DNA of 59,338 nt, from the NCBI GenBank assembly GCA_040877935.1, contig JBBDNB010000049.1:1-59338 (forward strand). Reading direction: 5' to 3'. The notes beneath the pieces are model-generated. The model saw only the letters and a list, made by a program, of their open reading frames with translations. It ran no database searches and was not told where the DNA came from. Each line of letters starts with the position of its first letter. The first letter of the stretch is position 1. Position numbers and translations under genes: made by a program. This stretch comes from Chitinophagales bacterium. Its GTDB lineage: Bacteria > Bacteroidota > Bacteroidia > Chitinophagales > CAIOSU01. This document shows positions 2,427 to 21,297 of this stretch, one piece after another.

Positions 2427-3707
2427 ATGAGTAAAAAAGTAGTATTTATAGATGGAGTGCGTACACCATTTCTGCGCTCTAACACAGATTACCAAGACCT
2501 AATGTCCTATGAGCTGGGCAAATTCGCCATTAAAGGGCTATTGCACAAAACGGGCATAGATCCCAATATTATTGACACCGTAATTATGGGAACGGTGATT
2601 TCCAATGTAAGAACCAGCAATGTGGCGCGCGAATCTGCTCTCACAGCAGGCGTTCCCACACATGTGCCCTGCCATACCGTAACCCAGGCCTGTATTTCTG
2701 CCAATCAGGCGGTGGCAAGTGGCATCAATGCAGTAATGAACGGACAGGCTGACGTTTTTATAGCCGGGGGAACAGACAATGTAAGCGATGTTCCCATTCA
2801 ATTTAAGAAGAAAATGCGCAAAAAATTAATGGCCGCACAAAAGCTTAAAGGCCCTGGCGATATTTTAAAATTTGTCTTGTCGCTGCGTCCCGGAGATTTT
2901 GTGCCCGATGCACCACAGGTTGCCGAGTTTATTACCGGTCGCACTATGGGGCAGGATTGTCAGTTGATGGCCGACCGTCTTGAAGTCAGCAGGGAGGAAC
3001 AGGATGAATTTGCCGCCCGTTCGCATCAGTTGGCAGGAAAAAACAAAGACAAGCTGGCCAGGGAAATCGTACCTGTAGAAATTTCCCCGAAATTCAAAGC
3101 CATTACGGAAGACAATGGCGTGCGTGGTGATACTACGGTAGAAAAAATCAGCAAACTGAAACCCGCTTTTTCAAAACCACATGGAACACTTACTGCGGCC
3201 AATTCATCTTTCTTAACCGATGGTGCAACAGCAGGACTATTTATGACCGAGGAAAAAGCCAAGGAATTGGGACTCAAACCCAAAGCCTATGTGCATGATT
3301 TCTGTTTTTCAGCACAGCGATTGGATGACGAACTCTTGCTCGGCCCAACATATGCCACTTCTAAGTTGCTTAAAAAAACCAATCTGCAGCTTTCTGATAT
3401 TGATGTTTTTGAATTTCACGAAGCTTTTGCCGGACAAATTATGAGCAATCTAAAATGCCTGGCTTCTGATACTTTTGCCAAGGAAAACCTGGGCAGGGAC
3501 AAAGCCGTGGGTGAAATTCCAATGGACAAATTCAATCTTTGGGGTGGATCACTTTCCATTGGGCATCCATTTGGTGCAACGGGAGTACGGCTTGTAACCA
3601 CCGCTGCCAATCGCTTGATAGAAGAAAATGGAAAATACGCCCTACTGGCTGCCTGCGCTGCCGGAGCACATGGGCATGCAATGATTTTGGAAAAATACCC
3701 CGAATAA
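2427..3707 (+). CDS. Acetyl-CoA C-acyltransferase (3-ketoacyl-CoA thiolase, FadI/HADHB-like)
   Basis: Catalyses thiolytic cleavage of 3-ketoacyl-CoA, the last step of beta-oxidation, or the reverse condensation. The 426-aa length is that of the FadI/trifunctional-protein-beta group rather than the roughly 390-aa acetyl-CoA acetyltransferases. The nucleophilic cysteine is in VTQACISANQA (near residue 90), the catalytic histidine in GHPFGATG, and the C-terminal cysteine/glycine motif is AACAAGAHGHA. The partner hydratase/dehydrogenase gene follows at 4286, so the two probably form an alpha/beta beta-oxidation complex. The pair is interrupted by the four-helix-bundle gene at 3755. Confidence 0.92.
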   Translation: MSKKVVFIDGVRTPFLRSNTDYQDLMSYELGKFAIKGLLHKTGIDPNIIDTVIMGTVISNVRTSNVARESALTAGVPTHVPCHTVTQACISANQAVASGINAVMNGQADVFIAGGTDNVSDVPIQFKKKMRKKLMAAQKLKGPGDILKFVLSLRPGDFVPDAPQVAEFITGRTMGQDCQLMADRLEVSREEQDEFAARSHQLAGKNKDKLAREIVPVEISPKFKAITEDNGVRGDTTVEKISKLKPAFSKPHGTLTAANSSFLTDGATAGLFMTEEKAKELGLKPKAYVHDFCFSAQRLDDELLLGPTYATSKLLKKTNLQLSDIDVFEFHEAFAGQIMSNLKCLASDTFAKENLGRDKAVGEIPMDKFNLWGGSLSIGHPFGATGVRLVTTAANRLIEENGKYALLAACAAGAHGHAMILEKYPE

Positions 3708-6679: not shown

Positions 6680-6712
6680 AAACCTTCAAGGTTTTGGAAA
6701 CCTTGAAGGTTT
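6680..6712. repeat. REP-like palindrome, 15-3-15 (AAACCTTCAAGGTTT family)
   Basis: Left arm AAACCTTCAAGGTTT at 6680-6694, spacer TGG, right arm AAACCTTGAAGGTTT at 6698-6712. The arms are perfect reverse complements, and each arm is itself a 7+1+7 palindrome. It is the leftmost of the palindromes scattered through the cas locus. Confidence 0.85.
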
Positions 6713-6945: not shown

Positions 6946-6976
6946 GAAAATACTAAATAAAAAATTATGAGCAAAA
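6945..6976 (-). promoter_or_regulatory. Weak candidate tracrRNA promoter overlapping the cas9 start
   Basis: On the minus strand TTTTG (6976-6972) is followed after 19 nt by TATTTTCA (6952-6945), which matches four of six fixed positions of TAnnTTTG. It would start transcription at about 6940, right at the anti-repeat. The -33 box lies inside the first codons of cas9, so the two divergent transcripts would share this DNA. Confidence 0.3.
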
Positions 6977-9900
6977 TTCTTGGATTAGACTTGGGAACAA
7001 ACAGTATTGGATGGGCTGTGGTGGAACGTGAAGATGGTGAACTTAATCTTGCGAAAGAAAATGGACAACCTACAAAAGGAGTAATCATTTTTCCAGAAGG
7101 TGTAAATATTGAAGCCAAAACCGGAAGTATGAAATCCCGCGCTTCAGAGCGTACTGGTTTTAGAAGTGCTAGAAGATTAAAGTTTAGGAGAAAACTCAGG
7201 AAATATGAAACTCTTTTAGTGCTTGTAAAAAATGGAATGTGCCCCCTATCAATTGATGATGTAGAATTATGGAAAAGCTCTGGTTTCAAGAAGTATCCTG
7301 AAAATGAAGACTTTCTAAATTGGCTTAAAACAGATGATAAGATCAATAAAAATCCATATCAATTTAGAGACAAGTTTTCACGGAATAAATATGATTGGGA
7401 AAACAAGCAAACACTTAAACATGAGTTAGGCAGAGCAATTTACCACATGGCTCAGCGCAGAGGATTCAAAAGCAATCGATTAGAGCAATCAGATGAAAAT
7501 GCTATCTCAGATTTCAAAGATCAGTTTCAACTTATCATTGATGAATCCACTAATACTTCTGAGTTACACATTGAAATAGAAAAGTTTTTGGAAGGTTATG
7601 AATTAAATGGAAAGAAAAACGATGATTTAGATAACACGCAACAAAAAATAAAAAGCATTCTAAATTATGCTAAAAAAGTAGTTGCCAATAAAGTAAAAGG
7701 AAAGGATTACAATGATTTCAATTCCATTAAAATTGAAATTGACAGATATATCAACAGACCTGAAAATCTTGGAGCTGTAAAAAAAGGTATAAAAGAACTG
7801 AGCGAAAAAATCAAAGAAGCCAAATGTGATACTTTAGGTCAATATTTTTGGTATTTATATCAAGGAAATAGAAATGACATAAAGAATAAAATCAGAACGC
7901 TATACACTGATAGGGAAAATCATTATGAGGAAGAATTCAATAGAATTTGTGAAACGCAAAGCATACCTAAGAATCTAAAAATAGCCTTATACAAAGCTTT
8001 ATTTTTTCAGCGCCCACTAAAATCCCAAAAAGGCTTAGTAGGCAAGTGTACTTTTGAAAACAATAAACCAAGATGTCCAATTTCAAGACCGGAATTTGAA
8101 GAATTCAGAATGTGGTCATTCATCAACAATATTAAAATCAAAACTGCCGAAGATGAAAGTTTAAGAAGGCTAAATGAAGATGAAATTGAAAAGATTATTC
8201 CAAGGTTTTACTTGCAAAGAAGCACTTTTAAGATGCAAGACCTTGCAAATGAACTTTTCCCAAAAGGAGTTACTCCGCTATACTACAAAGACAGCGAGGC
8301 AAAAGGGTTTCCTTACGTGATAAACTACAAACTAAACACTACAATATCAGGCAGCCCTGTATCAGCAGCTTTCAAGAAAATTTTAGGTGAAGATTGGAAA
8401 ACCAAAACATACACTTATCAGACCCTTGATGATAAAGGGAACACCGTAACAAGAAATGTGGACTACAAAGATTTATGGCACATTTTGTTCACATATGAAG
8501 ATGAAAAAAAGCTAAAAGACTTTGCTATCAATAATATAGGGCTTAGTAAAATAGAAGCGCAAAAGTTTTGCAAAATACCATTGTCACAAGGATATGCCAG
8601 CTTAAGCCTCAAAGCAATCAGCAATATACTTCCTTGGCTGAAAAAAGGACTTAAATATTCCCATGCTGTTTTTATGGCCAATTTGGGAAAAGTAATCAAA
8701 GAAAAGTACTGGAAAGATGCGGAAAGCAGATCTGCTATAGAAGCAGGCATAGGGTCAGTACTGGACAACCACAATTTAGAAGTAAAAAAACAATTGGCTG
8801 TCAATTCACTAATCAAAACCTACAAAACACCTGAAACTAAAGCAGAGATTTCAGATGAAGCTGAAGAATATTTCAGAAAAGATTTAGAAGAAAAACTCAG
8901 TTCAATTTTTGGTAAAAAATTCTGGGCTGAAAGAGAAAACAAAGATGAATTACTGAACGATGCTTTTGAACAACTGAAAAAGCAAATGAAAAAAATCAAC
9001 TCAAAAGATGCTTTTTTAAAAATCAAAAGAATAGATGATAGTGTCAAAGATTTTTTGTTGGACAATGATTTTGTTAAAGGAGCCAAAAAAGAGGAACATG
9101 AAAAAACAATCAAAAACCTATACCATCCATCTGATTTAGAAAGCTTTAAGCCAGTTGCTGCAAAAGATAAAAATGGAAATGAAATTTTGGTGAAAGGCGA
9201 AGCACTGAAACTGCTGCCACTTCCTAAAAGCGAATCTATCAAAAATCCCATTTTGATGCGCGCCATGCATCAACTCAGGAAATTAATTAACGAACTGTTG
9301 CTAAATGGGGTAATTGAACCAAAAACAAGAATTCATATAGAACTGGCAAGGGAAGTAAATGACATCAATAAAAGGAAGGCCTGGAAAGAATGGCAGGATG
9401 AACTTAGAAACAAGAGAGAAAATGCAGTAACTGAGATCAAAAAACTATACAAGGCTGAGTCTGGTAAAGAAATTGAGCCTTCAGAAGATGATGTGCTGAG
9501 ATATTTACTGTGGGAAGAGCAAGGTAAAAAAGAAATATACGAATTGAATAGCACAAATATTTCTATCTGCGACATTGTTGGCCCAGATCCAAAATATGAT
9601 ATAGAACATACCATTCCAAGAAGCAGGTCATGGGACAACTCAATGATGAACAAAACACTCTGTTCAAAAAAATTCAACCGTGAAGAAAAGAAAAATCAAA
9701 TTCCATCTGAGTTAGATAATCATTCAGATATCCTACAAAGAATCGAGCATTGGGAGAAAAAATACAATGATCTTGACAATCAAATCAAAAAGATAAATGC
9801 CAGTAATATCACAGATATAGAGGCAAAAAATAGGGCTATAGTCAAAAGACATGTCCTTACGTTTGAAAGGAACTATTTGAAAGGCAAGCATGAAAGATTT

Positions 9901-11565
9901 ATCATGAAGCAAGTACCCGAGGGTTTCAAAAACAGTCAAACTACCGATACAGGATTAATCACAAGATTTGCCCGTAATTACCTTAGCTGTTTGTTCAGAA
10001 CGCATAGTGATAACAGTAATGTACGTGTAGTTAATGGGGTAGCAGTTTCAGAATTTAGAAAAGCATGGGGAATCCAAAAAGAGTACGAGAAAAAATCAAG
10101 AGCGAACCATATTCACCATTGCATGGATGCAGTTACAGTAGCTTGTATGACCAAAGATAAATATGATGCTTTTGCCGAAGAATGGCGAAAAGCTGAAGAA
10201 GAAAGCAAATATGATGTCAAAAATAAATTCAGTCATCTAAAGCCTTGGTCAACCTTTACTGAAGATGTGCTTAATCTTCAAAATGAAGTTTTGATAGTAC
10301 ATGCACATAAAGACAATGTCCCCAAACAAACAAAAAAGAAATTAAGGAAGCGAGGTAGAATCCAATACCTTGTGGAATATCAAAAAGACAGTCAAGGAAA
10401 CTTTATTAGAGACGAAAAGGATAATAAAAAACCTGCCAAAGATGCAAACGGTAAAATCATTTACAAGCTAGATAAGAAGGGCAATAGAATTCCAATCTAT
10501 CAGCAAGGTGATACTGCGAGAGGTAGCCTACACCAAGATACTTTTTATGGAGCTATTAAATTACCTGAAATAGACGATAAAACTGGTAAACCATTGAGAA
10601 ATGACGATGGATCATTTGTTTTGAAAACTGATAAAAAAGGAAATGATGAGGTAAAATATGTAGTAAGAAAGAAACTCTCAGATCTAAGTGATAGCGATCT
10701 GGATAAGATTATAGATCCAACAATAAAAGAAATTTCTAAAAAAGGTAGGGTTCAAGAAAAATCACTGAAAAAAGAAATAGAATCCTTAAACAAGGAACTG
10801 AAAAAAGCTGAGAATGAACAAGAAGCTATCTTAAAGACTCAAATCAAAAAACTCAAGCATCAAATAGAAAATGAGCTGTATATAATACCTCCCAAGAAAG
10901 GTAAAAATATTTTTACTCCAATTAAGAAAGTTAGAATAAAAGCTCATTTATCTGAACCTCTTCCCGAATTTAAACAACATAGAGATAAGGCTAAAAATAT
11001 TGATGGTACTGAAAAACATCCCCACAAAAAATGGATTTATGCTCAAAACGAAAGGAATTATTGTTTGGCAATCTATGAAAATAATGATCAAACTAAGAGG
11101 GCTGCTTTAAGTGTTAGGCTAATTGATGCAATTGATTATTTTAAAGAAAGTAATAAAATATACAGAAAAAACCATCCTCTAATTCCAGATAAAAATGGAA
11201 TGAATATAAAAGGCTTTCTTAAACCCAATACTTTAGTACTATTATATGAAAATCATCCGGAAGAATTATGGGATTTGAAAAAAGAAGAAAAGCGAAAACG
11301 ACTCTACTTTGTTAGAAAAACCAATAAAGATGGTAGAATCACTTTACAATATCACCAGGAGGCACGCAACGATGATCAATTAAAAACAGATTATGAAAAT
11401 GAATTTGGGGTAAAACCACCAGCATCTCTAACAAATGGAGAATCAAGTGTCGACTTCGAGCAACTACCTATTCCCAAGTTACTTTTGAGTCCATTAAAAA
11501 TGACTTTGTTAATTGAAGGGTTTGAATTTAAACTTACAACTACTGGTGATATAGTTAAAGTGTAA
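6967..11565 (+). CDS. cas9: Type II-C CRISPR-associated endonuclease Cas9
   Basis: RNA-guided double-strand DNA nuclease that acts with crRNA and tracrRNA. The 1532 aa place it among the long Cas9 proteins typical of Bacteroidota. RuvC-I is KILGLDLGTNSIGWAVVE with Asp8. The Arg-rich bridge helix starts near residue 58 (ERTGFRSARRLKFRRKLRK). A large recognition lobe follows. RuvC-II is RIHIELAREVN with Glu792. The HNH domain has YDIEHTIPRS with His881 and DNSMMNKTLCSKKFN. RuvC-III has HIHHCMDAV with His1051 and Asp1054. About 470 C-terminal residues form the WED/PAM-interacting part and include a Lys/Glu-rich predicted coiled coil near 1250-1300. All nuclease residues I can check are present, so it is probably active. 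The absence of csn2 and cas4 supports subtype II-C. The PAM cannot be read from this window. Confidence 0.96.
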   Translation: MSKILGLDLGTNSIGWAVVEREDGELNLAKENGQPTKGVIIFPEGVNIEAKTGSMKSRASERTGFRSARRLKFRRKLRKYETLLVLVKNGMCPLSIDDVELWKSSGFKKYPENEDFLNWLKTDDKINKNPYQFRDKFSRNKYDWENKQTLKHELGRAIYHMAQRRGFKSNRLEQSDENAISDFKDQFQLIIDESTNTSELHIEIEKFLEGYELNGKKNDDLDNTQQKIKSILNYAKKVVANKVKGKDYNDFNSIKIEIDRYINRPENLGAVKKGIKELSEKIKEAKCDTLGQYFWYLYQGNRNDIKNKIRTLYTDRENHYEEEFNRICETQSIPKNLKIALYKALFFQRPLKSQKGLVGKCTFENNKPRCPISRPEFEEFRMWSFINNIKIKTAEDESLRRLNEDEIEKIIPRFYLQRSTFKMQDLANELFPKGVTPLYYKDSEAKGFPYVINYKLNTTISGSPVSAAFKKILGEDWKTKTYTYQTLDDKGNTVTRNVDYKDLWHILFTYEDEKKLKDFAINNIGLSKIEAQKFCKIPLSQGYASLSLKAISNILPWLKKGLKYSHAVFMANLGKVIKEKYWKDAESRSAIEAGIGSVLDNHNLEVKKQLAVNSLIKTYKTPETKAEISDEAEEYFRKDLEEKLSSIFGKKFWAERENKDELLNDAFEQLKKQMKKINSKDAFLKIKRIDDSVKDFLLDNDFVKGAKKEEHEKTIKNLYHPSDLESFKPVAAKDKNGNEILVKGEALKLLPLPKSESIKNPILMRAMHQLRKLINELLLNGVIEPKTRIHIELAREVNDINKRKAWKEWQDELRNKRENAVTEIKKLYKAESGKEIEPSEDDVLRYLLWEEQGKKEIYELNSTNISICDIVGPDPKYDIEHTIPRSRSWDNSMMNKTLCSKKFNREEKKNQIPSELDNHSDILQRIEHWEKKYNDLDNQIKKINASNITDIEAKNRAIVKRHVLTFERNYLKGKHERFIMKQVPEGFKNSQTTDTGLITRFARNYLSCLFRTHSDNSNVRVVNGVAVSEFRKAWGIQKEYEKKSRANHIHHCMDAVTVACMTKDKYDAFAEEWRKAEEESKYDVKNKFSHLKPWSTFTEDVLNLQNEVLIVHAHKDNVPKQTKKKLRKRGRIQYLVEYQKDSQGNFIRDEKDNKKPAKDANGKIIYKLDKKGNRIPIYQQGDTARGSLHQDTFYGAIKLPEIDDKTGKPLRNDDGSFVLKTDKKGNDEVKYVVRKKLSDLSDSDLDKIIDPTIKEISKKGRVQEKSLKKEIESLNKELKKAENEQEAILKTQIKKLKHQIENELYIIPPKKGKNIFTPIKKVRIKAHLSEPLPEFKQHRDKAKNIDGTEKHPHKKWIYAQNERNYCLAIYENNDQTKRAALSVRLIDAIDYFKESNKIYRKNHPLIPDKNGMNIKGFLKPNTLVLLYENHPEELWDLKKEEKRKRLYFVRKTNKDGRITLQYHQEARNDDQLKTDYENEFGVKPPASLTNGESSVDFEQLPIPKLLLSPLKMTLLIEGFEFKLTTTGDIVKV

Positions 11566-11568
11566 TCC

Positions 11569-11724
11569 ATGAACCGCTCAGAATTTCTTAAGAGTATTGG
11601 CTTGGGGGCAAGCGGATTAATCTTGCCCAAAAATTTGGATTTGCCCTTTAAGCTCGTAAAAATCTATGAGAATTATGAGCATCCCACCCCTGACAGGAGA
11701 AAAAACCCTGTCAGGGTTAGCTAA
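11569..11724 (+). pseudogene. Short remnant after cas9: Tat-like N-terminus, possibly of a HIRAN-type protein
   Basis: A 51-codon frame starts 3 bases after the cas9 stop and ends at TAA 11722-11724. It begins MNRSEFLKSIGLGASGLILP, which resembles the N-terminus of twin-arginine-type Bacteroidota proteins, and continues with LVKIYENYEH. From memory, this is similar to the start of HIRAN-domain proteins of this phylum. After HPTPDRRKNP the reading runs into a palindrome of the CCCTGACAGG / CCTGTCAGGG family (about 11688-11718), and the frame stops. I infer a gene truncated by a repeat insertion or deletion. The parent family is uncertain. Confidence 0.4.
11688..11718. repeat. REP-like palindrome (CCCTGACAGG / AACCCTGTCAGGGTT)
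   Basis: The right arm AACCCTGTCAGGGTT at 11704-11718 is a perfect 7+1+7 palindrome. The left part CCCCTGACAGGA is a diverged arm. It belongs to the second palindrome family in this locus (compare 13481-13515 and 33879-33893) and lies between cas9 and the RAYT gene. Confidence 0.7.
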
Positions 11725-11786: not shown

Positions 11787-12479
11787 ATGAGTAACAAAAT
11801 CATAGAATTAGAACCTAAAAAAAGATACCATATCTTTAACCGGGCCAATGGCAATGAAAGCTGCTTTCTTTCAGATGACAACTATAGATACTTCCTAAGA
11901 AAATATAAAACACACATCTACCCTATTGCAGATACCTACACTTATTGCCTGATGCCCAATCATTTTCATTTTGTGGTGAAAATTAAAAAAACCGAGGATA
12001 TAGAAACATACATCAAAAAGAATCCCAAAACTTTTCCAAAGTTCCAAGCTATGGAAAATCAAGATTCAGAAACAACCCTGACAGAGTTCCGAACCTCGAA
12101 AAACCTTCAAGGTTTCAAAAACCTTGAAGGTTTGGTATCGCAACAATTCAGCAACTTTTTTAACGCCTATACCAAAGCCTTTAACAATCAGCAAAACCGT
12201 AAAGGCAGTTTATTTATGCACACCTTCAAAAGAAACCCCATCATCACCGACCAATATTTTTGCAAAGCCATCCACTATACCCACTACAATCCCGTTGAAG
12301 CAGGCCTTTGCAAAACTCCTGATGAATGGAAGTTTTCCTCTTACAATGCCATCATCAGCAACAAAGACTCACTGATCAAAAAAGAAGAAGTACTTGACAG
12401 CTTTGGAGGCCTGGAAAATTTCATCCACTGCCATACAGAGCCTCCAAATTTAACAGGAATAGATTTGAAGTTTACGTAA
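11787..12479 (+). CDS. REP-associated tyrosine transposase (RAYT, Y1/HUH family)
   Basis: Single-strand DNA transposase-like enzyme of the TnpA-REP group, whose known members act on REP palindromes. The protein has 230 aa. The HUH motif is NHFHFVVK with His59 and His61, preceded by YCLMPNHFHF, a family hallmark. The catalytic tyrosine is probably Tyr128 in FSNFFNAYTKAFN, and KGSLFMHTFKR and YTHYNPVEAGLC are further RAYT signatures. Residues of about 105-116 (KNLQGFKNLEGL) are encoded by a 33-base palindrome of the same family that surrounds the gene. The gene stands in cas-operon orientation between cas9 and cas1, an unusual place. It looks intact and could be active; it is not a known CRISPR component. 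Confidence 0.88.
   Translation: MSNKIIELEPKKRYHIFNRANGNESCFLSDDNYRYFLRKYKTHIYPIADTYTYCLMPNHFHFVVKIKKTEDIETYIKKNPKTFPKFQAMENQDSETTLTEFRTSKNLQGFKNLEGLVSQQFSNFFNAYTKAFNNQQNRKGSLFMHTFKRNPIITDQYFCKAIHYTHYNPVEAGLCKTPDEWKFSSYNAIISNKDSLIKKEEVLDSFGGLENFIHCHTEPPNLTGIDLKFT
12101..12133. repeat. In-frame 15-3-15 palindrome inside the RAYT gene
   Basis: Left arm AAACCTTCAAGGTTT (12101-12115), spacer CAA, right arm AAACCTTGAAGGTTT (12119-12133). Total 33 bases, which keeps the frame. Just upstream, 12075-12089 (AACCCTGACAGAGTT) looks like a single arm of the second palindrome family. Confidence 0.85.
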
Positions 12480-12491
12480 CCCACATTTTAA

Positions 12492-12526
12492 AAACCTTCA
12501 AGGTTTCAAAAAAACCTTGAAGGTTT
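12492..12526. repeat. REP-like palindrome, 15-5-15, between RAYT and cas1
   Basis: Arms AAACCTTCAAGGTTT (12492-12506) and AAACCTTGAAGGTTT (12512-12526), spacer CAAAA. It starts 12 bases after the RAYT stop and ends 20 bases before the cas1 ATG, which is where RAYT-associated REPs usually lie. Confidence 0.85.
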
Positions 12527-12545: not shown

Positions 12546-13466
12546 ATGCTCAAACGCACCTTACTCTTCAGCAATCCGTACCACCTCAGCACAACAAGCA
12601 ATCAACTGGTGGTAAATACAAAAGGAAACGGAACGTCCAGAACAGTGCCCATAGAAGACCTGGGCTTTGTTGTATTGGAACACCCACAGATCACCTTTAC
12701 CCAAAGCGCGATGCAATTGCTATCAGAAAACAATACAGCAGTGGTATTTTGCAATAACAAATACCTACCTGTTTCTATGCTGCTCAACCTCAATGCCAAT
12801 ACCGTACAAACAGAAACCTTTCGCTATCAGCTCAACGCCAGTGAGCCTTTGAAAAAACAAATCTGGCAGCAGACCATTAAAGCTAAAATTAGGAATCAGG
12901 CAGCAGCCCTGGACTTGGCAAACTTTTCCAAAGTTGAGAACTTTGGAAAAGTTGGGCTTGGAAACGAAGCCCTACTGCACATCGCCAAAAACGTAAAAAG
13001 CGGAGATGTCACCAACAGGGAAGGCGAGGCAGCCCGAAGGTATTGGCCTTTGTTCTTTGGAAGGGATTTCGCGCGAGAACGCTTTGGGGAAAGCCCCAAC
13101 CCGGCATTGAATTACGGCTATGCTATTATCAGGGCTGCAACTGCAAGAGCACTATCAGGCTCAGGCCTCCTCCCTATCCTCGGTATCCACCATCGCAATA
13201 AATACAACGCCTATTGCCTGGCAGATGATATTATGGAGCCCTATCGCCCAATAGTGGATTTACAGGTAAAGGATATGCTGGAAAACGAAATGGACTGTGA
13301 AGATCTCAAGCAGGATTCAAAAGCTTGTCTATTGGAGTTGCTCAGTGCGGATGTGCAAATGGGAAAGAATAAAAGGCCACTTATGGTGGCTCTTTCTGAA
13401 ACCACAGCCTCGCTGGCAAAGGTATTTAAGGGAGAGAGCAAAAAAATGAAATACCCTCAACTCTGA
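12546..13466 (+). CDS. cas1: CRISPR-associated endonuclease Cas1 (type II)
   Basis: Metal-dependent integrase that, with Cas2, inserts new spacers into the array. 306 aa from the ATG at 12546; a TTG at 12525 in the same frame lies in the palindrome arm and is unlikely. The N-terminal beta domain includes DLGFVVLEHPQITFTQ. The helical domain has the family motifs KAKIRNQAAAL, SGDVTNREGEAARRYW (metal-ligand Glu159) and GIHHRNKYNAYCLADDIMEPYRPIVD (His215/His216 and acidic residues). Residues 126-136 (NFSKVENFGKV) have no counterpart in Cas1 proteins I know. They are encoded exactly by a 33-base palindrome, between two helices where a loop is expected. The enzyme is probably still functional, since the frame and active-site residues are kept. 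Confidence 0.95.
   Translation: MLKRTLLFSNPYHLSTTSNQLVVNTKGNGTSRTVPIEDLGFVVLEHPQITFTQSAMQLLSENNTAVVFCNNKYLPVSMLLNLNANTVQTETFRYQLNASEPLKKQIWQQTIKAKIRNQAAALDLANFSKVENFGKVGLGNEALLHIAKNVKSGDVTNREGEAARRYWPLFFGRDFARERFGESPNPALNYGYAIIRAATARALSGSGLLPILGIHHRNKYNAYCLADDIMEPYRPIVDLQVKDMLENEMDCEDLKQDSKACLLELLSADVQMGKNKRPLMVALSETTASLAKVFKGESKKMKYPQL
12921..12953. repeat. In-frame 15-3-15 palindrome inside cas1
   Basis: Left arm AACTTTTCCAAAGTT (12921-12935), spacer GAG, right arm AACTTTGGAAAAGTT (12939-12953). The arms are perfect reverse complements. The 33 bases coincide with codons 126-136 of cas1. Confidence 0.88.
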
Positions 13467-13480
13467 CAAGGGGAGACTTC

Positions 13481-13515
13481 AACTCTGATAGGGTTCAAAA
13501 AACCCTGTCAGAGTT
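13481..13515. repeat. REP-like palindrome, 15-5-15, between cas1 and cas2
   Basis: Arms AACTCTGATAGGGTT (13481-13495) and AACCCTGTCAGAGTT (13501-13515), spacer CAAAA. The arms differ by one base from perfect complementarity. A partial third copy (AACTCTGACAAGGGG) begins at about 13459, overlapping the end of cas1. It lies 18 bases before the cas2 ATG. Confidence 0.8.
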
Positions 13516-13533: not shown

Positions 13534-13872
13534 ATGCGACACAGCAGACTAAACGCTTATCATATTATGTGGCTATTTGTATTTTTCGATTTGCCTACCA
13601 ATACCAAGACCGAGCGCAAAAACGCTTCCGGTTTCAGGAAAAAACTAATGGCTGACGGTTTTACCATGATGCAATACAGTGTATATTCCAGGCATTGCGC
13701 CAGCCGAGAAAGCTCGGCTGTTCATATCAAGCGGGTAAAATCCTTTGTCCCCAGCAAAGGACAGGTGAGCATTATGGAAATCACCGACAAACAATATGGC
13801 ACTATTATGAATTTTTGGGGCAAAAAAACCGATCCATTGCCCGAAGGGCCTAAGCAGTTGGAGTTGTTTTAA
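13534..13872 (+). CDS. cas2: CRISPR-associated protein Cas2
   Basis: Structural partner of Cas1 in the spacer-integration complex. 112 aa, normal for type II Cas2. The ferredoxin-like fold starts with RLNAYHIMWLFVFFDLPT (conserved Asp19), continues with a basic helix (TERKNASGFRKKLMADGF), MMQYSVYSRHC and the beta strand GQVSIMEITDKQYGTI, and ends LPEGPKQLELF, a common type II Cas2 tail. The start at 13534 keeps the residues before IMWLF that other type II Cas2 proteins have. It is the last cas gene; the array begins 253 bases downstream. Confidence 0.93.
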   Translation: MRHSRLNAYHIMWLFVFFDLPTNTKTERKNASGFRKKLMADGFTMMQYSVYSRHCASRESSAVHIKRVKSFVPSKGQVSIMEITDKQYGTIMNFWGKKTDPLPEGPKQLELF

Positions 13873-13879
13873 CCCAAAA

Positions 13880-14016
13880 AAACCTTCAAGGATCACGAAA
13901 AAACCTTCAAGGTTTAACACCCGCATGACAAACATCCTCAACTCGAAAAACCTTGAAGGTTTCATGTCTCCTTCCACAAAAACCTTCAAGGTTCAAGAAA
14001 AAAACCTTGAAGGTTT
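13880..14016. repeat. Cluster of five AAACCTT-type palindrome arms after cas2
   Basis: Five 15-mer arms in 137 bases: 13880-13894 (AAACCTTCAAGGATC), 13901-13915 (AAACCTTCAAGGTTT), 13948-13962 (AAACCTTGAAGGTTT), 13980-13994 (AAACCTTCAAGGTTC) and 14002-14016 (AAACCTTGAAGGTTT). The second with the third, and the fourth with the fifth, can fold as hairpins. A frame running through this stretch from 13925 is translated repeat, not a gene. Confidence 0.85.
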
Positions 14017-14125: not shown

Positions 14126-16994
14126 AATATCAAAGATCAATTTTTACAATCAAACCACAACCTTTAAAAGCTTTATTGCATAAGTGGCACTAATATCAAA
14201 GATCAATTTTTACAATCAAACCACAACTTTTGCGCCTGGCTTTTCGCTTGGAACGTCAATATCAAAGATCAATTTTTACAATCAAACCACAACCTACCTT
14301 ATCAGCCACTATTTTGGCGTCAAAATATCAAAGATCAATTTTTACAATCAAACCACAACCCTGATCATCCGTATGCGCTCCTGGAAGCGAATATCAAAGA
14401 TCAATTTTTACAATCAAACCACAACTGCAAATGGCAGTTATAACGAGAGCTTTCGAATATCAAAGATCAATTTTTACAATCAAACCACAACCTTTGCAGA
14501 ACAATTATAGAACTGTTGGTCAATATCAAAGATCAATTTTTACAATCAAACCACAACACTTTTCTTCTTATTCTCATTTCCTTGTTAATATCAAAGATCA
14601 ATTTTTACAATCAAACCACAACTTCGTTTCTCCTCATACTAAAACACGCAAAAATATCAAAGATCAATTTTTACAATCAAACCACAACTGTTTGGTGGCG
14701 TTTTTATTCCGTTGTACTAATATCAAAGATCAATTTTTACAATCAAACCACAACTGGGTAACGACAAGCTAAACAACGTGGCTCAATATCAAAGATCAAT
14801 TTTTACAATCAAACCACAACTGCTCCTGGCTGTTCTTAGCTCTAATTTCAAATATCAAAGATCAATTTTTACAATCAAACCACAACCACGCCTGCCGTGC
14901 GCAGTTCAAACTGCCGAATATCAAAGATCAATTTTTACAATCAAACCACAACACAGGCTTGATAACAGGCGGCTGGGCTGATAATATCAAAGATCAATTT
15001 TTACAATCAAACCACAACTCTGGCCCATTCCTCGGCAGCGAAATCCCAATATCAAAGATCAATTTTTACAATCAAACCACAACAACTTAAAAGCAAATGA
15101 GAAGAAAGGACATAATATCAAAGATCAATTTTTACAATCAAACCACAACCTCTGGGGCTCGTTAAGTGTCACACCAACAAATATCAAAGATCAATTTTTA
15201 CAATCAAACCACAACAAGGAGCTGCCTCAAAGACAGACATTCCGGAATATCAAAGATCAATTTTTACAATCAAACCACAACATTTCCGTCTCCACTACTT
15301 TAATAACCTTAAATATCAAAGATCAATTTTTACAATCAAACCACAACCTACTGTGGCCGTTCCTGTGGCCTGGTTGGAATATCAAAGATCAATTTTTACA
15401 ATCAAACCACAACCGAAGGGTATGGGCTATAGCGTGTGTTAGAAATATCAAAGATCAATTTTTACAATCAAACCACAACTCTATGTTGACTCTTGTCGGG
15501 CCCACACCGAATATCAAAGATCAATTTTTACAATCAAACCACAACCCGCTTATGGCTACTGTTATTTGAGGTGCTAATATCAAAGATCAATTTTTACAAT
15601 CAAACCACAACATTTCCGTCTCCACTACTTTAATAACCTTAAATATCAAAGATCAATTTTTACAATCAAACCACAACCTACTGTGGCCGTTCCTGTGGCC
15701 TGGTTGGAATATCAAAGATCAATTTTTACAATCAAACCACAACTAATAGCATATTCAACACCTTATTGAAATCAATATCAAAGATCAATTTTTACAATCA
15801 AACCACAACAGGCAGGACGTTATCAGGAAAGTTGACTGAATATCAAAGATCAATTTTTACAATCAAACCACAACAAGGCTTTGTTGGTGGACAGGATTGG
15901 CGAAAATATCAAAGATCAATTTTTACAATCAAACCACAACCCAATTGCACACGTGGGCCACTATCTCTGAAATATCAAAGATCAATTTTTACAATCAAAC
16001 CACAACTAACAACGGCTTATACACCATAAAAGCAATAATATCAAAGATCAATTTTTACAATCAAACCACAACTTTCTTCTCGTTCTTTCTTTAATTTAGC
16101 TTAATATCAAAGATCAATTTTTACAATCAAACCACAACTTTCTTTAGCATCTTCTTCTTCAAATTCTCAATATCAAAGATCAATTTTTACAATCAAACCA
16201 CAACATCAAATAATACATATACATCAGATAAAGAATATCAAAGATCAATTTTTACAATCAAACCACAACTGAAGATGAACCGACTGCCGAGGATGCAAAA
16301 ATATCAAAGATCAATTTTTACAATCAAACCACAACCTGCTAACAGCGTATATAAGAAATGGCACAAATATCAAAGATCAATTTTTACAATCAAACCACAA
16401 CAATTTCCTTACAATATGATGCGTTTGCCAAATATCAAAGATCAATTTTTACAATCAAACCACAACACTGGGTTTCCGGCAACCGTTAAAGTTATTAATA
16501 TCAAAGATCAATTTTTACAATCAAACCACAACCTGTGCGCAAATATCGGCTATAAATTTTCCAATATCAAAGATCAATTTTTACAATCAAACCACAACCA
16601 AGCCCCTGTATCGGCAACAGAAGCCGCAAATATCAAAGATCAATTTTTACAATCAAACCACAACAGCACTACTGCATATAACGGCATTCCCCTGAATATC
16701 AAAGATCAATTTTTACAATCAAACCACAACTAGGCCAGCAGTGCATATTTCCACTCCAAAAATATCAAAGATCAATTTTTACAATCAAACCACAACCTCA
16801 AAGCGAAGGGATAAAAACGGATATGAAATATCAAAGATCAATTTTTACAATCAAACCACAACAATCCTGATCCTGTGGCCTGCAATGCAGCAAATATCAA
16901 AGATCAATTTTTACAATCAAACCACAACCTTCACGAACTTGGCCATTACGTGCTTCAGAATATCAAAGATCAATTTTTACAATCAAACCACAAC
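14126..16994 (-). CRISPR. Type II-C CRISPR array, 44 repeats and 43 spacers
   Basis: The 36-base repeat reads AATATCAAAG...AACCACAAC on the plus strand (GTTGTGGTTTG...TTTGATATT on the minus strand). It recurs identically from 14126 to 16959 (last start), with period 66; five spacings are 65. I count 44 intact repeats and 43 spacers, 38 of 30 bases and five of 29. Two adjacent spacers occur twice: 15282-15311 equals 15612-15641, and 15348-15377 equals 15678-15707, exactly 330 bases apart. I infer the minus strand as crRNA sense from tracrRNA pairing. Reading frames found across the array are translated repeats. Confidence 0.98.
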
Positions 16995-17023
16995 TATGGC
17001 TTGATCAATGTGTGCAGCCAATC

Positions 17024-19410: not shown

Positions 19411-19538
19411 AAAAAATCCATTCACCAATTTCCCATTTCAATCACGATAGACTTCCAAAGTCTCAAAGACTTGGGAAGTCTCGCTATAACAAAACCATCC
19501 CCCCCTCCTATCAGTAGCGCCCTCGCTACGGATTAATT
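19411..19538. repeat. Long direct repeat, copy 1 (flanks the SDR-DUF2867 gene)
   Basis: Begins AAAAAATCCATTCACCAATT, contains a 15-3-15 palindrome at 19449-19481 (arms AGACTTCCAAAGTCT and AGACTTGGGAAGTCT, spacer CAA), then AGTAGCGCCCTCGCTACG, and ends GATTAATT. Copy 2 at 21185-21297 has the same order with a 15-base shorter middle. Confidence 0.8.
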
Positions 19539-19653: not shown

Positions 19654-19686
19654 ACACTTTGCTTAAAACTAATGTTAGAAATGTCT

Positions 19687-21111
19687 ATGAAAATTCTACT
19701 TACAGGTGCTACAGGATATATCGGAAAGCGATTGCTCCCTACTTTAGTTGAAAATGGACATAAAGTTGTTTGTTGCACAAGAGATCCCGATAGATTCACC
19801 CCCCCGGAATCACTTGAAGACAACATTCAGGTAATCCAAGTTGACTTACTTGATATAAAGACACTAGAAAATATTCCATTGGATATAGATGCCGCTTATT
19901 ATCTGGTACATTCCATGTCAACATCAGATGAATATGAAGTACTTGAAAAAGAATCTGCCATAAATTTTAGAAATGCCATTGAGAAAACCCAAGCCAAACA
20001 AATAATTTATTTGAGTGGAATTGTAAATGATAACAATTTATCAAAACATTTAAACTCCAGAAAAAATGTTGAATTAGAATTGGCAAAAGGCAGTTATAAC
20101 TTAACCACACTGCGTGCTGGCATTATAATAGGTTCTGGAAGTGCCTCTTTTGAAATCATTAGAGATTTGGTAGAAAAACTACCGATTATGATTGCTCCAA
20201 AGTGGCTCAATACCAAATGTCAACCTATTGGAGTAACCGATGTGATTAAATTCCTGATTAAATCATTGGGAAATAAATCCACTTATAATAAAAACTTTGA
20301 TATTGGCGGGCCCTCTATTTTGACTTACAAAGAAATGCTGCTTGGCTTTGCCAAAGTTAGGGATCTGGGCAGAATAATAATTATTGTCCCGGTAATGACC
20401 CCGCGTATCTCCTCTTACTGGCTTTACTTTGTTACATCTACTTCTTATAAATTGGCCGTTTCTCTGGTCAATAGTATGAAGATTGAAGTCATTTGTAGAA
20501 ATAATGAAATCAACCATATTCTAGGAATTGAACCCATCACTTATCAGGCCGCATTGGAAAAAGCCTTTGCCAAGATAGAAAGCAATGAGATTGTTTCTAG
20601 TTGGAAAGACTCACAAGTAAGCGGTAGGTTGAAATTCAATATTTCAGACTTTATAAACGTGCCCAGCTATGGTTGTTTCAAAGATGTAAGAAAAAGAGAA
20701 TTGAAAGACAGAAAATATTCCATTGAAAAATTATGGGCTATTGGTGGTGAAAACGGTTGGTATTCTGCTGATTTTTTATGGCAATTAAGGGGTGTATTGG
20801 ACAAATTTTCAGGAGGTGTGGGTTTGCGCAGAGGCAGGACCAACAAAACCTCGCTGGAAGTAGGGGATGCTCTGGATTTTTGGCGTGTGCTTTATGCTAA
20901 TAAGGAGGAAGGAAGACTATTGCTTTTTGCTGAAATGAAATTGCCCGGTGAAGCTTGGCTCGAATTTAATATCAAGAACAATGTACTGACCCAAACTGCT
21001 ACTTTTAGACCAAAGGGTTTGTTGGGTAGATTGTACTGGGCTTCTGTACTTCCATTTCACGGAATTGTTTTTAATGGAATGATCAATAGCCTAAGTAAAG
21101 ATATTAACTAA
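19687..21111 (+). CDS. NAD(P)-binding SDR protein with C-terminal DUF2867
   Basis: 474 aa from ATG 19687 (MKILLTGATGYIG); two in-frame ATGs lie 6 and 15 bases upstream. Residues 1-300 are an atypical extended SDR fold: Rossmann motif TGATGYIGKRLLP, then CCTRDP as the probable NADP-binding strand end, AAYYLVHSM and QIIYLSGIV. Residues of about 330-474 match DUF2867 (LRRGRTNKTSLEVGDALDFWRVL, LLFAEMKLPGEAWLEF, LYWASVLPFHGIVFNGMI). Proteins with this two-domain layout occur widely in Bacteroidota; substrate unknown. The gene stands alone between two long direct repeats, 19411-19538 and 21185-21297. Confidence 0.85.
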   Translation: MKILLTGATGYIGKRLLPTLVENGHKVVCCTRDPDRFTPPESLEDNIQVIQVDLLDIKTLENIPLDIDAAYYLVHSMSTSDEYEVLEKESAINFRNAIEKTQAKQIIYLSGIVNDNNLSKHLNSRKNVELELAKGSYNLTTLRAGIIIGSGSASFEIIRDLVEKLPIMIAPKWLNTKCQPIGVTDVIKFLIKSLGNKSTYNKNFDIGGPSILTYKEMLLGFAKVRDLGRIIIIVPVMTPRISSYWLYFVTSTSYKLAVSLVNSMKIEVICRNNEINHILGIEPITYQAALEKAFAKIESNEIVSSWKDSQVSGRLKFNISDFINVPSYGCFKDVRKRELKDRKYSIEKLWAIGGENGWYSADFLWQLRGVLDKFSGGVGLRRGRTNKTSLEVGDALDFWRVLYANKEEGRLLLFAEMKLPGEAWLEFNIKNNVLTQTATFRPKGLLGRLYWASVLPFHGIVFNGMINSLSKDIN

Positions 21112-21184: not shown

Positions 21185-21297
21185 AAAAAATCCATTCACC
21201 AATTTCCCCTTCCAATGACGATAGACTTCCAAAGTCTCAAAGACTTGGGAAGTCTTACTACCCCTCCTATCAGTAGCGCCCTCGCTACGGATTAATT
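21185..21297. repeat. Long direct repeat, copy 2
   Basis: Matches 19411-19538, with the palindrome at 21223-21255 (arms AGACTTCCAAAGTCT and AGACTTGGGAAGTCT, spacer CAA). It ends one base before the stop codon of the OmpA-family gene on the other strand. Confidence 0.8.

Follow-up and report, generated by a model that had tools for sequence, protein, structure and literature searches.

Known Systems

REPINs consist of two inverted REP hairpins that form one mobile, non-autonomous unit dependent on a RAYT. The elements described here resemble REPs and REPINs in being short hairpins in inverted pairs that are repeated in the genome, with copies flanking a RAYT gene, but the unit, of about 33 bp with a 3-base spacer, is smaller than REPINs as we know them. 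Passages of PMC6006769 report that HuH transposases (IS200/IS605 and TnpA-REP) recognise hairpins in single-stranded DNA, that the foot of canonical RAYT-linked REPs is the tetranucleotide GT[AG]G, and that REPs are inserted in frame in the tnpA-REP genes of subclass 2.4, which is abundant in Bacteroidetes and has the motifs NH[IFV]H and YIxNNP. According to sections of PMC3733652, single and dimeric palindromic REP repeats form in-frame parts of many genes, among them genes for DNA repair and for polymerases; these dimers are GTAG- or CGTC-tagged and most of the inserts have 20–30 aa, unlike the 11 aa found here. In the portion of its section on intragenic REPs considered, cas1 is not named.

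Rickettsia palindromic elements, to which the original prediction had likened the present case, are, as here, palindromic DNA that protein-coding genes have taken up without loss of frame. The likeness holds for this outcome only, as the present element, a REP-like double hairpin, is linked to a RAYT-like gene of its own operon, and the Rickettsia elements are other families set apart from it by their description, RPE-4 and RPE-6 corresponding to CGTC-type repeats and RPE-1 being longer (parts of PMC3733652). A search of the open-access literature found no report of cas operons that contain RAYT genes or of cas1 genes that contain a palindrome. The word CRISPR is absent from the text of PMC6006769, the terms REP-associated, HUH, and RAYT are absent from the parts considered of PMC12669027 and PMC10910872, PMC8934634 mentions RAYT a single time, among listed gene neighbours of reverse transcriptases, and the part considered of PMC5303251 is unrelated in content.

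The 33-bp Palindrome of cas1

The window, that is, the whole stretch of 59,338 nucleotides analysed here, contains a cas operon in the order cas9 (6967–11565; 1532 aa), RAYT-like gene (11787–12479; 230 aa, with HuH and Tyr motifs), cas1 (12546–13466; 306 aa), and cas2 (13534–13872), followed by a CRISPR array of 44 repeats spaced 65–66 bases (14129–16998, the end being approximate), all on the + strand. As to the criteria for II-C, cas9, cas1, cas2, and the array are present, and the frames that lie from cas9 to the array include neither csn2 nor cas4. Cas1 is of type II, with 277 bits against TIGR03639 (cut-off 120), and this full-length family match and the 44-repeat array fit, without proving it, a working system.

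Within cas1, positions 12921–12953 form a perfect 15-3-15 double hairpin, whose arms (12921–12935 and 12939–12953) are 100% complementary around the spacer GAG and which corresponds to codons 126–136 of the frame, encoding the residues NFSKVENFGKV, in agreement with the original prediction on both the arms and the peptide. In 1000 shuffles of the cas1 codons, the longest inverted repeat (loop ≤6) was at most 11 bp, against the 15 observed, and the two five-residue arms allow 24,576 encodings, the single palindromic one being the one used. Among the cas1 genes of 119 relatives, the longest inverted repeat within the same loop limit is ≤13 bp, except in L139, where it reaches 16. The exact arm has seven matches in the 4.03-Mb genome and its reversed control none, and the predicted RNA fold of the 33-mer has −16.3 kcal/mol (z −4.95).

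The 119 aligned relatives comprise eight of ten loci on named contigs (the partial L009 and L010 being left out) and 111 loci from genomes of the same order and class; the partial G467 was retained, seven incomplete or weak matches were left out (G080, two each in G157 and G204, G208, and the second place in G233), and some of the named contigs may duplicate species of genomes in the same set. The nearest complete relatives on named contigs belong to Bacteroidota. Between the NQ and KS columns, 25 residues are found in 101 relatives, 26 in 11, 27 in two, and more in five. The expectation of a short loop at this place in other Cas1 proteins is therefore accurate for 114 of the 119, with 25–27 residues versus 36 in the window, which become 25 once the 11 residues are removed. 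None of the 119 carries NFSKVENFGKV, be it in palindromic or in other codons. The nearest Cas1 proteins compared are 58–63% identical, with no pair of filled and empty sites within one species, and no target duplication is visible at the insert.

An AlphaFold model of Cas1 of moderate confidence (pLDDT 72, nine sequences) places residues 126–136 between helices 100–124 and 138–148, with residues 128–138 under pLDDT 50 and no confident shape for the loop, and the best Foldseek matches of the model are Cas1 chains of Cas1–Cas2 complexes. It is plausible from this model that the insert lies in a flexible loop. Judging from the alignment, the identical copies elsewhere, and the parallel cases described below, the 33 bp are an inserted element, and the idea that cas1 absorbed a palindromic element in frame is supported.

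Double Hairpins in the Operon and in Other Genomes

The palindrome is one of a class of ~33-bp inverted double hairpins that occur in and around genes for RAYT-like proteins. A detector of two inverted self-complementary 13-mers with a spacer of ≤12 found 57 clusters in 298 kb of the loci L244–L279, versus 15 in 894 kb of first-order Markov sequence. Under stricter limits, 33 of the 42 double hairpins in RAYT-bearing cas loci have a 3-base spacer, 29 of them being exactly 15-3-15. The arms differ between loci, and the families named here are A (AAACCTTCAAGGTTT), B (the cas1 palindrome), C (AACTCTGxCAGGGTT-like), and D (GACTTCC-type). The pattern AACCTTSAAGGTT finds 19 arms of family A in the genome, 10 of them within 7.3 kb around the cas operon, and none in the control; a broad pattern, ACTTTNNNAAAGT, was discarded as useless, with 23 matches per strand against 29 in its control.

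In the operon, a type A double hairpin (15-3-15) precedes cas9 at 6680–6712 and a single type C-like arm, AACCCTGTCAGGGTT, lies between cas9 and the RAYT-like gene at 11704–11718. The latter gene contains a decayed type B double hairpin at 12029–12061 (arms 15/15 and 10/15), a single type C arm, AACCCTGACAGAGTT, at 12074–12088, and a type A double hairpin (15-3-15; NLQGFKNLEGL) at 12101–12133, all read in frame, the type A copy between HuH and Y. With its internal type B copy decayed and the intact one of type A, the mover of type B in this genome may be this protein or another. A type A double hairpin (15-5-15) is found at the junction of the RAYT-like gene and cas1 (12492–12526), a type C double hairpin (15-5-15, with one arm mismatch) at that of cas1 and cas2 (13481–13515), and four type A arms downstream of cas2 (13901–14016).

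The protein of the window matches NF047646 with 53.9 bits, below the cut-off of 80, and is therefore named RAYT-like; all 15 aligned members match this family at E ≤ 0.001 (best 4.4e-20), and H59, H61, and Y164 are invariant in all 15. From the Y motif as given in part of PMC6006769, it would follow that Y164 is the catalytic Tyr. The in-frame REP between HuH and Y of subclass 2.4 is paralleled by the type A copy in the window, and the motif NHFH fits that subclass as well, but the Tyr motif follows Y[IT]HxNP in most members and not YIxNNP, with YTHYNP in the window and YIHxNP as the prevalent form elsewhere. Moreover, subclass 2.4 REPs have the GT[AG]G foot, whereas the double hairpins do not: it was detected within 6 nt in two of 124 element ends and further out also in two (62 sites, the insert of the window being counted twice), and the flanks show no fixed base. 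Since the foot is lacking, the element is termed REP-like and not a canonical REP.

Type B double hairpins were found in seven of the 149 genomes searched, including that of the window, and none with the reversed control. With exact arms there are 26 distinct copies, 25 of them with a 3-base spacer of variable letters, and 24 lie outside any frame of ≥120 aa, so that only two are inside a gene by that criterion. Allowing ≤3 mismatches with a 3-base spacer, G095 has 18 copies, G130 has eight, G037, G101, and G107 have two each, and G125 and G000 have one each, G000 having one more with a 4-base spacer. As 33 bp is the usual size of the element outside genes too, divisibility by three alone is no sign of selection on Cas1, and a reading of the length as frame selection was rejected. 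In RAYT-bearing cas loci, a 3-base spacer is present in 22 of 24 intragenic copies versus 11 of 18 others (one-sided Fisher test, p = 0.022, which becomes 0.041 when the unrelated palindrome of L255 is excluded), a weak indication of a frame filter on the intragenic copies there.

The peptide itself recurs. The RAYT-like protein of G283, whose gene is in another cas operon, contains NFSKVSNFGKV, and those of G411 and G529 contain NFSKVLNFRKV. In G095, a frame at L091:1435-2499, which may be read as DnaE-like from its Pfam HHH_6 match, has NFSKVFNFGKV near its end, derived from a type B double hairpin. One DNA element thus gives a near-identical peptide in three unrelated proteins, Cas1, RAYT-like, and DnaE-like.

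Other copies were observed along the way. In the window, two identical type D double hairpins (GACTTCCAAAGTC...GACTTGGGAAGTC) at 19450–19480 and 21224–21254, 1774 bp apart, flank a single gene (19672–21111) with NAD(P)-binding and DUF2867 domains, and a similar one lies beside a broken RAYT-like gene on contig C23 (L125:3143-3173). Elsewhere in the genome of the window, a 1296-aa DUF7948/SBBP protein (C14; L127:203-4093) contains NLQGFENLEGL inside its DUF7948 match, encoded by an in-frame type A double hairpin, and palindromes with the other arms GTGATACTATGAC and CTCATACTATGAC (L123:2927-2957 and 3326-3356) sit in or beside the RAYT-like gene at 27.6 kb of C57.

Parallel Cases in Other cas1 Genes

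The cas1 gene of L139 (genome G303), whose protein is 60% identical, carries AACTCTGTCAGGGTT-TCA-AACCCTGACAGAGTT in the same loop; this 33-bp double hairpin differs from that of the window and is read in the same frame. In L225 (G194), a double hairpin with one arm mismatch is in frame near cas1 codons 176–186, in another loop and another frame. In a Cas1 tree built without the loop, the window pairs with the insert-free L143 (G201; support 0.861) and L139 groups with L141, the insert-free L140 and L142 standing alongside; the node that unites these six has a low support of 0.318. Since the window and L139 group with different relatives, insert-free ones among them, two insertion events in the same Cas1 loop are the likeliest reading of these sequences. 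When the C-type double hairpin of G303 was searched for with a 3-base spacer and ≤3 mismatches, one copy was found in that genome and none in nine others, the genome of the window included; more C-like copies, with other spacers or more mismatches, are present in the G303 operon and in the window. A RAYT-like gene or a remnant of one is near each of the three hairpin-bearing cas1 genes. The original prediction knew of no report of such an insertion in cas1, and none was found in the open-access search, but the case is not unique, as G303 and G194 carry related elements.

Long inverted repeats of other kinds are also found in cas1. In G032 (L059:1888-1968), the Cas1 loop TSPPTPLLKKERGE derives from an 11-3-11 palindrome in the same first loop, where the relatives L062 and L071 contain other long inserts. 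Its pattern (≤2 mismatches, six genomes) occurs once in G032, as the cas1 copy, and once, mismatched, in G066; it was rejected as the same element as that of the window, being a different one that was not seen repeated in G032. L229 (13-4-13) and L153 (12-5-12) have further long inverted repeats, both within conserved coding motifs.

RAYT-like Genes beside cas1

A search of the 119 cas1 extracts with three RAYT-like proteins as queries found open RAYT-like frames beside cas1 in 18 loci. These are 20 frames, all on the cas1 strand, two of them being pieces of one broken gene and one a weak match (E 1.9e-8). Including the window and G194, where a RAYT-like remnant lies 1.3 kb upstream of cas1, 20 of the 120 loci have a RAYT-like gene that adjoins cas1 and shares its strand. 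The linkage is uneven, with none of eight on named contigs (flanks 5 kb), one of 29 in L049–L077 (1.5 kb), six of 28 in L139–L166 (1.5 kb), and 12 of 54 in L186–L239 (≤0.5 kb). Among the 19 loci for which a wider region was read, 16 have the gene upstream of cas1 and four have it downstream (G303, G201, G398, and G155, which also has an upstream one); it overlaps the cas1 frame by four bases in G371 and by eight in G358, and it is decayed in G260, G285, G250, and G194. In G303, a Fic-domain gene (L241:8688-9479) lies between cas9 and cas1 of the type II operon.

In a profile survey of 80 cas1-bearing genomes (84 minus G157, G204, G208, and G467; E ≤ 1e-15), 39 rows became 37 matches after pieces in G000:C23 and G371:C665 were merged, and 20 of the 37 were within 1.4 kb of cas1, distributed over 18 genomes out of the 25 that had a match, although the profile, having been made from cas-linked members, favours such matches. 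By our own estimate, about 0.05 would be expected at random places in genomes of ~3.6 Mb. A RAYT-like gene ~6.5 kb from cas1 on the same contig (L268; G393:C36) was left out of the linked count, and no double hairpin was detected around it. In a tree of 16 cas-linked and 33 other RAYT-like proteins, seven label changes are needed, compared with a mean of 13.8 and a minimum of nine in 1000 shuffles, which rules out a single cas-linked clade, though the members are clustered. Co-inheritance with Cas1 is weak, the Mantel r for n = 15 being 0.24, a value that 327 of 5000 permutations also reached. The clustering outside a single clade, together with this weak correlation of distances, points to repeated gain with some stable lineages.

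The 20 RAYT-bearing cas loci contain the 42 double hairpins mentioned above, of which 21 are inside the RAYT-like gene (in 17 loci), three in cas1, 18 between or flanking genes, and none in cas9 or cas2. In this count, cas9 and cas2 of G194 are unmarked, one of the 42 (L255) has another shape, and the extent of the RAYT-like gene in two broken genes and in G194 is that of the match. Three of the 20 loci have no double hairpin inside the gene, G358 and G260 having none in the operon, and some internal copies lie elsewhere than in the HuH–Y interval or in broken genes. In extracts made alike, 27 double hairpins occur in 46,472 bp of 19 RAYT-positive loci and two, one of them of another shape, in 329,727 bp of 100 RAYT-negative loci, which had limited flanks and a few of which may be misfiled. 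A double hairpin is present in cas1 in three of 20 RAYT-positive and in none of 100 RAYT-negative loci (Fisher p = 0.004, relatedness being ignored).

Origin of the Insert

The 33 bp of cas1 are very probably a non-autonomous REP-like element tied to the RAYT-like gene of the operon and inserted in the part that encodes a loop. The element consists of two copies of one short hairpin, inverted, with a free 3-base spacer. By analogy with the HuH transposases, the RAYT-like protein would recognise the hairpin as single-stranded DNA and mobilise the double hairpin, and short-range hopping from the neighbouring gene could make the operon a frequent target. A copy that landed in the part of cas1 for the loop between two helices would, as the usual element is 33 bp long and free of stops in frame, keep the Cas1 frame and add 11 residues; the loops of Cas1 and of the RAYT-like protein would survive the insertion, and Cas1 may still work.

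The palindrome could instead belong to another kind of mobile element, MITE-like or of the Rickettsia type, with the RAYT-like gene as a bystander. The missing GT[AG]G foot, a RAYT-like protein below the NCBIfam cut-off, its movement of the element being deduced by analogy, and the unrelated 11-3-11 palindrome in the same loop of L059 would all suit this explanation, which is nevertheless improbable, since the element is inside the RAYT-like gene in 17 of the 20 cas loci, type B copies lie on both sides of that gene in G037 and G095, and double hairpins are rare in cas1 extracts that have no such gene.

There is likewise little chance that selection preserves the double hairpins for a structural role in the RNA or DNA of the cas operon (as attenuators, or as signals of RNA processing or stability), that they spread by gene conversion, and that the cas1 copy is kept for its hairpin. 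The stable RNA fold, the copies at several gene junctions of RAYT-bearing cas operons, and the perfect arms with variable spacers, for which the search itself demanded exact arms, are in keeping with such structures. However, these elements also lie scattered through genomes at a distance from cas genes, and they are found with RAYT-like genes outside cas operons as well, inside them in L264 and L272 and on both sides in L267. Moreover, with only two double hairpins in the 100 RAYT-negative extracts, a cas operon can do without them.

That the loop grew by normal substitution or duplication, the palindrome being a coincidence of codon use, is extremely improbable, for, although the loop varies and is longer in L062, L071, and L141 with no double hairpin, chance and ordinary protein sequence are contradicted by the codon tests and the alignment, and the very same arms reappear in genes of unrelated kinds and in further genomes.

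Going beyond a REP-like origin of the insert, the RAYT-like gene might be an accessory gene that recurs in the type II (II-C-like) cas operons of this bacterial class, and not a chance passenger. As a putative single-stranded DNA endonuclease of transposase type encoded with cas1 and cas2 and on their strand, it would perhaps act on single-stranded DNA in spacer acquisition or use the operon as a transferable home, its hairpins being able to remodel Cas1 loops. We regard this broader role as rather unlikely.

Implications

Intragenic REP-like elements are already known; here, it is the CRISPR integrase that is altered, and this in three or more lineages, two of which share the affected loop. 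A RAYT-like gene next to cas1 in about one-sixth of the sampled loci (20/120) also has no earlier report that was found in the open-access literature. Should the link be functional, the adaptation module would have a new partner in an HuH endonuclease derived from a transposase; if it is not, cas operons would be a favoured home of a small mobile system. The natural loop insertions, moreover, offer ready-made variants with which the tolerance of different parts of Cas1 to change can be tested.
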